NCBI GenBank assembly: GCA_017988135.1
Contig: JAGNSI010000008.1
Location: 1-33,469 of the forward strand
Direction of reading: 5' to 3'
Source: Pseudarcicella sp.
GTDB taxonomy: Bacteria; Bacteroidota; Bacteroidia; Cytophagales; Spirosomataceae
DNA length: 33,469 nt
Numbering within the stretch: the first letter of the stretch is position 1; every line of letters begins with the position of its first letter. Under the pieces are notes generated by a model that was given only the letters and a program-made list of their open reading frames with translations, was not told where the DNA came from and searched no databases. Position numbers and translations under genes: made by a program. Below are positions 2,294 to 5,650 of the stretch, one piece after another.

Positions 2294-2896
2294 CTACAAC
2301 AGCCTTTTAGTGTTTGATTTATAATTTAAATAAATTGTGCCATGCTGTTTTTCCAAGAATTCTTCTTCTAAACGTATTTGAATTTGAATAATAAAGTAAG
2401 TAGCGAAACTAAGAAAAAAAGTTACAGCGTTTGGTAAAATAAGAAATAATCCAAGAACTGTCAAAATCATACCTAAAAAAATTGGGTTTCGTGAAATACT
2501 GAAAATCCCTTTTGTAACTAGTTCGGTGCTATTTTTTTCATCTATACCTATTCTCCAAGATTTACTCATTTGAACTTGGGCTACAAAAATCCAAATTAGT
2601 GCTAAATGAATGATTACTAATCCAATATAAATCAATATTTCATTTTCAAGAAATAAAATTGGTGAAGAATACTGGTATACTTTATAGCCAAATGAATAAA
2701 ATATTATTGAAATAAATAATAAAGCTATCAAAATTTTCATCAAAAATCCTATATAATCATGTGCATTGTCTCGTTTTCCAAAAGTGACTGGGTTGATTCC
2801 AGTTTGTTTGTGAGTACGATAAGAAGGCACCACAAAAGCTAAAAGTAAATAGAATACTAAATAAATGGGTAAGTATATTTTAAGAAAAGCTTCCAT
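2294..2896 (-). CDS. ICMT/PEMT-like integral membrane methyltransferase
   Basis: The 200-aa membrane protein has about four to five hydrophobic segments (roughly 5-24, 50-70, 86-107, 140-172). It carries the C-terminal signature of the isoprenylcysteine carboxyl methyltransferase / phospholipid methyltransferase superfamily: SRNP at 135-138, EEEF at 177-180 and then HGTIYLNY. These enzymes use S-adenosylmethionine on lipid-like or prenyl substrates; in bacteria the substrate is generally unknown. I chose the ATG at 2896 because the frame upstream of it runs inside the receptor gene; with this start only 4 nt separate it from the receptor stop at 2901, which implies translational coupling. It is the last gene of the DUF6660-like/receptor cassette. 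Confidence 0.75.
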   Translation of the reverse strand: MEAFLKIYLPIYLVFYLLLAFVVPSYRTHKQTGINPVTFGKRDNAHDYIGFLMKILIALLFISIIFYSFGYKVYQYSSPILFLENEILIYIGLVIIHLALIWIFVAQVQMSKSWRIGIDEKNSTELVTKGIFSISRNPIFLGMILTVLGLFLILPNAVTFFLSFATYFIIQIQIRLEEEFLEKQHGTIYLNYKSNTKRLL

Positions 2897-2900
2897 GTTT

Positions 2901-5081
2901 TTATAATTTAATTTTAATTCCTCCATTGATTGTAAAACCCTCTGTATGCGTCCAAATATCATCAAAAGTTGGGTTTGTGTTCGAGCCATTTACCACACGC
3001 TTATAGTTGCTTTGGCGTGTATCAGTAAAATTTTCAAAGTTTATAAAGACTGAATATTTTTTTAAGAAAAACTTTTCAGCCATAAAACCAAATTCCCAAA
3101 ATGCAGGCGACTGATTTCCATTGTATAAAAATTGCTTCCCAGTTGAATAGCCTTCCAAACCTAACTTTAGTTTATTTTCAACTTCATAAATCAAAGCCAA
3201 ATTCACCTTGTTTTTGGGTAATAATGGTAAAAATTGTTGATATCTCAAATATTCTGCCTTGGCATCTGTAAATGTATAGCCTATAAAAAGTTTCAAAGCC
3301 TCTTTGTATATAAACTTAATATTTGTTTCAAAACCCTTACTCATAACTGGATTATTAGCATTGATAAAGCTATAATTTGCTCCTTTTTGTTGCAAAATCA
3401 ACGGTTTGTTTATTTGTGTAACATAAAACATTTGATTAACGCTAAATAATAAATCGTCTGAAAAACCACCTTTATAATTTATATCAGCCGTTGCACCGAT
3501 ACTTTTTTCAGCTTCTACATTATTCAGAGCCATTACATTTTGATATTGCATAGTTTCTGTTTGTTCAGTAAAAATTGTGGGTACTTTATAGCCTAAACCG
3601 CCTCCAATTCTGCTACTCCATTGATTGTTAATTTTAAACAAAGCGGAAATTTTGGGCAAAATAAAAGTTTGATTTTTAGAAAAATTAGGGTTTGAGTATT
3701 CCACATTATCAATTCGCAATCCATTTTCTAATTTTACTTTCTCTGAAACATCCCAAGTATGTTGAATGTATGAGCCTACTGTAAAAGATTTTGAATTAAG
3801 CGTTGAGCTGTTTTTTTCTTCAAATTCATCAAAAATCAAGTTTGCACCTGCAATTAATGTGCTTTTATCCTTGTTCCAAACATAAGATAAATCAGTATAA
3901 GCATTGGTATTTAAACCCGAAAAGGTATAATTTGGAATACTTATTTTTCTATCAAAAAAACTAAGGCTTTGCTTAACTTTTAAACTATTTTTACCCTTAA
4001 ATTTTCTTTCAAGTTCAAATGTTGTCGTATTTCGCATAGTTTCATTTTGCTCAAAATAAGTATGGTTTGCATCAATATTGCCTTCTATTACTTTCATATC
4101 ACCACCTTTCATTTCGCCTTTTGTAAAACTATTTCCTAACATTATACTCGTTTTTGGGTTCGGATAATAGAACAATCGTGGATTGATAGTGAAATTACTA
4201 GATTTTGGTATTTCTGAAAAATCGTCTTTGTCTACATCATACGATTTTTGAAAATTGATTAAACCCAACATTGTATAGCCAAATTTCCCTTTTCGCTGTG
4301 AAGCATATCCACCCAAATTTGATTGCCCAATATTCGACTGGTTCAGTATAAAATTGTATTCGCCTTGTTCTTTTGGTGTTTTTGAAATGAAATTTACTAC
4401 TCCTGCAATTGCTCCACCACCATACAAAGTTGAAGCTGGTCCTTTGATAACTTCCACTTGTTTTAAGTCCAAAGGTGGAATTTCTAAAATACTCAAACCA
4501 CTTGCAAAATTGCCAAAATTGGGATATCCGTCTTTCAAAAGTTGGGTATATCGCCCATCTAACCCTTGCACTCTTATACTTGCGTTGCCACTTGTTGCAG
4601 AAGTTTGTTGCACTTGTAGGCCTGTACTTTCGTGCAAAACCATTGAAACATTGGCAGGTTTCATATTAGATTTTTCGTCTAATTCTTCTACATCAATGCT
4701 TTCAATTCGGGTTGGCGTGTTAGCAATAGTGCGACTTGTTCGAGTAGATTGTACAATTACTTCATCTAAACTTTCAGCTTCTTCTTTCAAAAATATTTGA
4801 ATAGTATCAGTTTCTGATATTGGGAAATTATAAAAATTGTCGACAGTTTCATAGCCAATATATGTAAATTGTAGCTGAATTTTGCCATTTGGAACGTTTA
4901 TAAACTCCAAATAGCCATTTGCATTAGTTGATGTGCCAAGTTTTGAATTGAGAATTTTTGCCGTAGCACCAATTAAAATTTCATTGGTTTTGTTATCTTT
5001 TACAACGGCTTTGAATTTATTTTGGCTGTATGTAGTCGAATACGCACACACAAGCACAAAAAGAAAAAATATTTTCTTCAT
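2901..5081 (-). CDS. TonB-dependent outer membrane receptor
   Basis: The 726-aa protein has a signal peptide (residues 1-19, ending TTYSQ), then a carboxypeptidase-regulatory-like beta-sandwich (about 22-97). A TonB-box-like DEVIV follows at 106-110, then a plug domain (about 115-235, with RVQGLDGRYTQLLKDG and EVIKGPASTLYGGGAIAGVV), and a beta-barrel to the C-terminal strand GGIKIKL. Such receptors import bound metals or small ligands using TonB-ExbBD energy. No SusD partner is present, which argues against a polysaccharide utilization locus. The upstream His/Cys-rich secreted protein suggests a metal-related ligand (inference). The next gene downstream begins 4 nt after its stop. Confidence 0.9.
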   Translation of the reverse strand: MKKIFFLFVLVCAYSTTYSQNKFKAVVKDNKTNEILIGATAKILNSKLGTSTNANGYLEFINVPNGKIQLQFTYIGYETVDNFYNFPISETDTIQIFLKEEAESLDEVIVQSTRTSRTIANTPTRIESIDVEELDEKSNMKPANVSMVLHESTGLQVQQTSATSGNASIRVQGLDGRYTQLLKDGYPNFGNFASGLSILEIPPLDLKQVEVIKGPASTLYGGGAIAGVVNFISKTPKEQGEYNFILNQSNIGQSNLGGYASQRKGKFGYTMLGLINFQKSYDVDKDDFSEIPKSSNFTINPRLFYYPNPKTSIMLGNSFTKGEMKGGDMKVIEGNIDANHTYFEQNETMRNTTTFELERKFKGKNSLKVKQSLSFFDRKISIPNYTFSGLNTNAYTDLSYVWNKDKSTLIAGANLIFDEFEEKNSSTLNSKSFTVGSYIQHTWDVSEKVKLENGLRIDNVEYSNPNFSKNQTFILPKISALFKINNQWSSRIGGGLGYKVPTIFTEQTETMQYQNVMALNNVEAEKSIGATADINYKGGFSDDLLFSVNQMFYVTQINKPLILQQKGANYSFINANNPVMSKGFETNIKFIYKEALKLFIGYTFTDAKAEYLRYQQFLPLLPKNKVNLALIYEVENKLKLGLEGYSTGKQFLYNGNQSPAFWEFGFMAEKFFLKKYSVFINFENFTDTRQSNYKRVVNGSNTNPTFDDIWTHTEGFTINGGIKIKL

Positions 5082-5174
5082 TTTATGAAAATTAGTTTAA
5101 TAAAAATAAAATAGACGCTTTTTTACACTCCTAATGTTTGGGAGAATTATAAAAAACAGTGAAAATGTATTTTA

Positions 5175-5501
5175 TTAACTAATCTTTGGCGGTTGCCAGA
5201 TTTTAGAAGAAATATTTTGTTTGTAGAAAAACGAGTAAACTGTTTTAAGTTTTTCATTATCTAAAACGACAACATTTTCTTTGGATGACAAAAAAGGTGT
5301 TTGTATTTGAAAAAAATACACGCCACAACAAGTACAAATACAAAAAGGTGTACATTGATCTGTTTCGTGGGTATGGTTATTGTGACTGTCTGTTTGAGAA
5401 ATTATTGTTTTTGATATGTCATAACATTCAACGCTTTCGTTGCACGGTAGCACCGAAAGTATAAGTAGAAAGATTGAAAATATAAAACAAAAAAATTTCA
5501 T
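5175..5501 (-). CDS. Small secreted His/Cys-rich protein (DUF6660-like)
   Basis: The 108-aa protein has a hydrophobic N-terminal export signal (about residues 3-19), then a His cluster (HNNHTH, 40-45) and directly after it CTPFCICTCCG (50-60) with five cysteines. This matches, from memory, a Bacteroidota family of unknown function (DUF6660) seen beside TonB-dependent receptors and heavy-metal genes. The dense His and Cys ligands suggest a periplasmic or surface metal-binding peptide, perhaps for copper or zinc; this is inference. The tail (61-108) has no recognizable motif. No standard lipobox is seen, since Pro precedes Cys20. It is the first gene of the cassette, 93 nt before the receptor start, and lies behind a promoter overlapped by a perfect inverted repeat. 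Confidence 0.65.
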   Translation of the reverse strand: MKFFCFIFSIFLLILSVLPCNESVECYDISKTIISQTDSHNNHTHETDQCTPFCICTCCGVYFFQIQTPFLSSKENVVVLDNEKLKTVYSFFYKQNISSKIWQPPKIS

Positions 5502-5604: not shown

Positions 5605-5638
5605 CAAAAATAGCATTTTTTGGGCTTGCGTCACCCAA
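5605..5638 (-). promoter_or_regulatory. Promoter of the His/Cys protein-TonB receptor operon
   Basis: On the minus strand the -7 element TATTTTTG lies at 5605-5612, and a TTG (-33) at 5636-5638 is 23 nt upstream, slightly long for the Bacteroidota consensus. The expected transcript would start near 5598 and have a leader of about 97 nt. The -33 TTG falls in the 6-nt centre of the palindrome at 5627-5650. Confidence 0.45.
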
Positions 5639-5650
5639 ATCGGTGACGCA
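5627..5650. promoter_or_regulatory. Perfect inverted repeat, candidate operator
   Basis: The arms TGCGTCACC (5627-5635) and GGTGACGCA (5642-5650) are perfect complements around the 6-nt spacer CAAATC. An outer pair, GCATTTT (5613-5619) and AAAATGC (5652-5658), extends it. No T run follows on either strand, so it does not look like a terminator. Its place on the -33 region of the cassette promoter fits a repressor or activator site. A competing hairpin TTTGGG (5619-5624) / CCCAAA (5634-5639) overlaps it. Confidence 0.6.

Follow-up and report, generated by a model that had tools for sequence, protein, structure and literature searches.

The locus described here occupies the minus strand of a 33,469-nucleotide (nt) stretch of Pseudarcicella sp. 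DNA (contig JAGNSI010000008.1), the whole of which is referred to below as the window. It is comprised of three genes, encoding a small protein of family DUF6660, a TonB-dependent receptor and an ICMT-like methyltransferase (Table 1), and the present analysis concerns the DUF6660 protein and its probable role in the control of the gene behind it. An earlier note, made from the bare sequence, had described the three genes as tightly packed, the receptor as lacking a SusD partner, the methyltransferase as starting 4 nt after the receptor, and the small protein as an exported chain with a His motif followed by a Cys motif. Open reading frame (ORF) and profile checks confirm each of these points. 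The DUF6660 and receptor genes are co-directional and 93 nt apart, no SusD gene adjoins the receptor, and the methyltransferase-like gene begins exactly 4 nt past the receptor stop codon (TAA AAAC ATG). The 231-residue ORF listed at this place is the 200-residue gene with a mere upstream extension into the receptor gene. The genome of 2.7 Mb, rated 100% complete, contains a single copy of DUF6660.

Table 1. Features of the locus, in window coordinates
Feature	Position	Strand	Basis
DUF6660 small exported protein, 108 residues; proposed metal-sensing arrest leader peptide	5175..5501	-	Pfam PF20365
Signal-peptide-like hydrophobic N-terminus, residues 1-20, the last being the near-invariant C20	5442..5501	-	sequence, AF2 helix, alignment
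HNNHTH...CTPFCICTCCG, putative metal site, residues 40-60	5322..5384	-	57-sequence alignment
WQPPK, arrest-like C-terminal motif, residues 102-106	5184..5198	-	alignment and ORF comparison
Hairpin 5' arm, starting with the codon that follows Pro-Pro and including the stop codon	5170..5186	-	RNAfold
Hairpin 3' arm, which stops 6 nt short of the receptor ATG	5088..5105	-	RNAfold
TonB-dependent receptor, 726 residues: CarbopepD_reg_2, Plug, beta-barrel	2901..5081	-	Pfam
PEMT/ICMT-family integral membrane methyltransferase-like protein, 200 residues (METHYLTRANSFERASE)	2294..2896	-	Pfam PF04191/PF04140
Perfect palindrome GCGTCACC-GATTT-GGGTGACGC, about 130 nt upstream of DUF6660	5628..5649	-	genome-wide scan

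The small protein scores 33.1 bits against the Pfam DUF6660 profile, for which the curated cut-off is 27, and thus belongs to the family. Its N-terminus was judged by inspection and by the AlphaFold2 (AF2) model, in which residues 2-17 form a helix of high confidence and no fold is seen apart from this signal helix. HNNHTH spans residues 40-45 and CTPFCICTCCG residues 50-60, and the chain ends in KIWQPPKIS, with Pro-Pro three residues before the end. Only C50, C56, P104 and P105 are invariant in an alignment of 57 sequences with a mean column identity of 32%, while P52, C59, W102 and Q103 are near-invariant. Pro-Pro lies inside the last 15 residues in all of 101 different DUF6660 sequences, but in only 3 of 372 other ORFs. 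WxPP is present in 97 of the 101, and 82 stop two or three residues past Pro-Pro. The distance from the first motif Cys to Pro-Pro is 49-54 residues in these sequences (standard deviation 1.3), despite a variable linker. No viral relatives of DUF6660 were found in the search.

Of the 195 genomes surveyed in the order, 54 encode DUF6660; of the 297 surveyed in the phylum, 55 do. Most loci of the order survey have a CzcA/CusA-type pump of about 1450 residues and a CusB/CzcB-type adaptor close downstream, and ten loci besides the window have there a receptor homologous to that of the window. Counted from the receptor, DUF6660 is directly upstream in 41 of the 49 homologues scoring above 500 bits, in relatives from the family of the window genome as well as in Flavobacterium, Pedobacter, Mucilaginibacter and Chitinophagaceae. 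In six homologues that are more distant, this position is without DUF6660. The neighbour search that the earlier note had proposed therefore gives a non-random pairing of DUF6660 and receptor. Of the trio that it had presented as a unit, this pair is recurrent, but the ICMT-like gene does not regularly accompany it, and all three genes together occur in the window alone among the loci surveyed. One peptide family thus stands before unrelated genes, the CzcA-type pumps and the receptor, and four genomes (G160, G184, G139 and G072) each have a separate copy before the receptor and before the pump. Several receptor loci, including those on plasmids of Ornithobacterium (pOR1) and Flavobacterium, continue with a heavy-metal P-type ATPase or a CDF exporter, both of which are metal exporters by family. 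The link to metals drawn in the note holds in the sense that the neighbours are metal-efflux genes.

The region between the DUF6660 and receptor genes is predicted to form a hairpin. The RNAfold z-score in the window is -4.0, none of 200 shuffled sequences being as stable, and no intrinsic terminator was found in this intergenic region. A hairpin of at least 8 pairs with the same placement is predicted in 52 of 54 receptor operons and 33 of 45 pump operons. Under a stricter definition it is present in 44 of 53 receptor operons (83%) and 27 of 46 pump operons (59%), compared with 34% and 22% in shuffled sequence. The two arms of a locus pair better with each other than with arms swapped between loci (p=1.3e-10 for receptor operons, p=7.9e-6 for pump operons, and p=4.9e-10 for a reduced set of 63 divergent representatives), and the same comparison in control intergenic regions gives p=0.16. 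In 11 members with 8-9 residues past Pro-Pro, the 5' arm keeps its start at Pro-Pro instead of moving to the stop codon. Judged by the known ribosome footprint, a ribosome stopped at WQPP would lie over the start of the 5' arm.

A Cys motif, a fixed spacing, a C-terminal Pro-Pro and a hairpin anchored at Pro-Pro make up the anatomy of CutF and CruR, and experiments on these two proteins have established that such an architecture regulates the next gene (PMC9973294; PMC9426467). Because of this shared anatomy, DUF6660 is likely to be a cis-acting, metal-sensing arrest leader that controls the next gene, rather than a metal shuttle feeding the receptor. DUF6660 would be translated with its nascent chain undergoing export, and binding of metal to the Cys/His motif of the nascent chain would prolong the ribosome pause on WQPP. 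The paused ribosome would occlude the 5' arm and hold the hairpin open, exposing the receptor start region; 4 nt behind the receptor gene comes the ICMT-like gene. When metal is absent, the ribosome would finish, the hairpin would close and the receptor would be little translated. The receptor and the methyltransferase, which resembles the CzcN protein discussed below, would then be the products of a metal-stress operon.

Several observations weigh against an arrest leader. WQPP differs from RAPP/RGPP, the sequence with demonstrated arrest, and the C-terminus of CutF alone was not a strong arrest sequence in a published assay (PMC9973294). Because the outer stem is nearly constant, base-pair covariation inside close groups is only modest; the predicted fold of about a quarter of the pump operons contains no hairpin, and for L095, a close receptor homologue, the z-score over a longer stretch is not significant. 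The weak resemblance of a few DUF6660 members to DUF2946 (E 0.036) and to CopL_fam (E 0.0016), which speaks for a leader, lies under the curated cut-offs in both cases. The window operon also works without the usual partners: profile searches of its genome found no P1B heavy-metal ATPase over the TIGR01525 cut-off and no CzcA over the cut-off, and one CDF exporter is encoded elsewhere.

The same device might work with the opposite sign, so that metal would relieve the arrest and shut down a metal-import receptor. CruR does head a TonB receptor in an operon that is repressed by copper, and its 45 residues between CXXC and RAPP (PMC9426467) are matched by about 45 residues between the Cys motif and Pro-Pro in DUF6660. 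This arrangement is nevertheless unlikely. The same leader heads CzcA exporters, many receptors are followed by co-directional genes for ZntA-type ATPases or CDF exporters, all of which would be expected to be induced by metal, and CruR relies on Rho termination within a long intergenic region, without a start-shielding hairpin. We infer that metal switches the operon on since one leader heads both the CzcA pumps and the receptor-exporter operons.

It is decidedly improbable that leader and hairpin form a termination-coupling device that senses no metal, with metal control exerted through a transcription factor. The hairpin and the close spacing speak for such coupling of translation; a Fur-like regulator gene is present in three related loci (L205, L206 and L213), and the palindrome lies upstream of DUF6660 in the window. 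Coupling alone, however, needs no conserved Cys/His, no WQPP and no fixed spacing, and in the long-tailed members the arm tracks Pro-Pro and not the stop codon.

Some metal-resistance operons encode periplasmic metal carriers, and DUF6660, being exported, rich in His and Cys and adjacent to the receptor, could be a stable periplasmic or secreted protein of this kind that hands metal to the receptor, as the earlier note had suggested, or to a pump elsewhere. Such a hand-over is very improbable and was rejected as the principal interpretation: it leaves unexplained the invariant WQPP, the fixed spacing, the Pro-Pro-anchored hairpin, the separate copy in each operon and the unrelated partners, the most conserved features being those of a ribosome-arrest leader; only the signal helix is folded in the AF2 model, which is weak evidence, and CutF, its analogue, undergoes degradation once exported (PMC9973294).

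The metal sensed by the proposed arrest leader is probably of the Zn/Cd/Co class rather than Cu, which is possible. The signature DFGxxxDGAVIIVE is present in almost every pump encoded downstream of DUF6660, and DFGxxxDGA is taken here as the mark of the CzcA type; the neighbouring ATPases resemble ZntA in their His-rich N-termini and CPC motif. The neighbours thus point to Zn/Cd/Co efflux and not to metal nutrition. Specificity for copper is not supported, the pumps being of the CzcA type and the receptors having no conserved His, Cys or (M667 excepted) Met ligands. The DUF6660 copies on the pump side nearly all have CxPFCxCxCC, and those on the receptor side are split between CxPFCxCxCC and CxPFxxCxxC. 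Different metals might be the cause of the split.

The window receptor is 71% identical to Flavobacterium homologues and at most 53% identical to those of its own family, which suggests horizontal transfer; it groups with Flavobacterium, a Sphingobacteriales metagenome-assembled genome and Pedobacter. The profiles of TonB copper and zinc receptors give only 16.2 bits (TIGR01778, cut-off 472) and 30.9 bits (NF038289, cut-off 950). Compared with the PDB, the AF2 barrel is about equally close to FrpB, Cir, OprC, BtuB and others (TM-score about 0.53-0.57, 10-14% identity), and structure was set aside as uninformative about the substrate. The question raised is why a TonB receptor, normally an importer, should be wired like metal exporters and often lie beside them.

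The third gene product scores 46 bits against the PEMT profile (cut-off 25) and 31.4 bits against the ICMT profile (cut-off 24), which places it in these families. SRNP and RLEEE are invariant among its close relatives and fit the R(N/H)P...EE core of the ICMT/PEMT family, and the protein aligns to the solved relative 4a2n. Its score against the protein-S-isoprenylcysteine O-methyltransferase equivalog NF040696 is 51 bits, below the cut-off of 160. Close homologues are rare, occurring in 8 other genomes of the 195 in the order and in 7 of the 297 in the phylum. Nine of these 15 adjoin metal exporters: five are in DUF6660-pump operons (G051, G142, G100, G180 and G432), and the remainder, in many cases preceded by a Fur-like regulator, have CDF or ZntA-type genes as neighbours. 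The receptor-ICMT pair was seen once more, in L206, where a CDF exporter gene follows. CzcN of the Cupriavidus metallidurans czc determinant is described as a membrane-bound ICMT (PMC7563307); CzcN of pMOL30 has Pfam families in common with the window protein but resembles it only distantly, with 36% identity over 66 residues (E 2e-8 in a single comparison). The earlier note had called the presence of an ICMT-like enzyme unexplained. Because its homologues recur beside CzcA, ZntA and CDF exporters, and CzcN falls into the same Pfam families, the gene is, on sequence and context, one of a pool of metal-efflux accessories. The probable substrate of the enzyme is an envelope lipid or a small thiol or chelator. 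Convergent with this gene, on the plus strand (776-2176), lies a gene for a secreted 466-residue protein that has no Pfam or NCBIfam match.

Upstream of DUF6660, the palindrome is the only site of its kind in the genome at up to 2 mismatches, and a Bacteroidota-type -7-like box, TATTTTTG, lies downstream of it. It may be taken as a candidate operator for some regulator.

No literature under the name DUF6660 was found in the collection searched. The class is known in outline, since CutF-like proteins of Bacteroidota before RND and TonB genes have been noted in bulk, and the published list probably already includes some DUF6660 proteins (PMC9973294). In Bacteroidota, a recent survey confined to RAPP/RGPP detected no copper leaders (PMC12992588), and DUF6660 with its WQPP may be the substitute for such leaders in this phylum. 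What the present analysis adds is the assignment of DUF6660 to this class, together with its WQPPK motif, a hairpin anchored at Pro-Pro whose arms match each other, and a connection to a gene of the CzcN family. It thereby supplies, for a family whose function was unknown, a concrete and cheaply testable hypothesis, that of a metal sensor read out by the ribosome. More tentatively, and with somewhat less than even confidence, WQPPK may mark a distinct, Bacteroidota-wide class of arrest peptides that probably respond to Zn/Cd/Co and not only to copper, act by keeping a start-shielding hairpin open, and control CzcA pumps and a TonB receptor made under metal excess, not scarcity. Small Cys/His-rich proteins with a similar WxPP-type end precede a CzcA pump and a DUF3347 gene on Haliscomenobacter plasmid pHALHY01 (L165:8616-9038, ending FLPIWQPPQIKA) and on pOR1 (L163:7742-8128, ending FFSIWLPPKII). 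The WxPP ending may be common to several leader families.

The locus can be compared with four known systems. The czcNICBAD determinant of C. metallidurans pMOL30 likewise has a small metal-linked protein, CzcI, in the leader position, a PEMT/ICMT-family CzcN and a CDF exporter, but CzcI has no C-terminal Pro-Pro, the CzcN alignment is limited to 66 residues and a TonB receptor is absent. On the same plasmid the tail of SilD is PP-rich, and between silD and silC (L232:1351-1424) an inverted repeat, AAGCAACG...CGTTGCTT, ends just before the silC start. In Caulobacter, the operon CC2720(DUF2946)-czrCBA-zntA resembles the DUF6660 loci in that a small leader-type ORF heads a zinc-induced CzcA-type pump and ZntA (PMC4176598); the leader is of another family and the operon has no TonB receptor.

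Control by copper-sensing nascent peptides is known from Proteobacteria, in CutF (PMC9973294) and CruR (PMC9426467), and arrest by CruR has been demonstrated in vitro (PMC12992588). CruR of Bordetella pertussis, a cis-acting DUF2946 protein encoded in cruR-bfrG, is like the window protein a leader before a TonB-dependent transporter, with about 45 residues separating the Cys motif from the C-terminal Pro-Pro. It differs in having RAPP and not WQPP, and Rho-dependent termination in place of a start-shielding hairpin. Membership of the DUF2946/CruR family was considered and discarded: the window protein has no match to Pfam DUF2946 (PF11162), and the profile matches only 2 of the 57 relatives, weakly and below the cut-off.

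The closest likeness is to CutF of Rhodobacter capsulatus (cutFOG), a small Sec-exported protein acting in cis, with a Cys metal motif, a C-terminal proline motif and a hairpin before the next start. The filters used for CutF-like proteins call for fewer than 150 residues, a signal peptide, Pro-Pro in the last 15 residues and a co-directional gene within 1000 nt, and the list obtained takes in Bacteroidota with RND and TonB neighbours (PMC9973294). The window protein passes all four by its length, its hydrophobic N-terminus, its C-terminal Pro-Pro and the nearby receptor gene. Its mature part has a putative Cys/His metal motif, recognized from sequence, and a stem-loop with arms matched across relatives would shield the next start. 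Unlike CutF, it belongs to DUF6660, with CxPxxxCxxC and WQPPK as its motifs; its hairpin shields an AT-rich start region, and the next gene in this family encodes a TonB receptor or CzcA.

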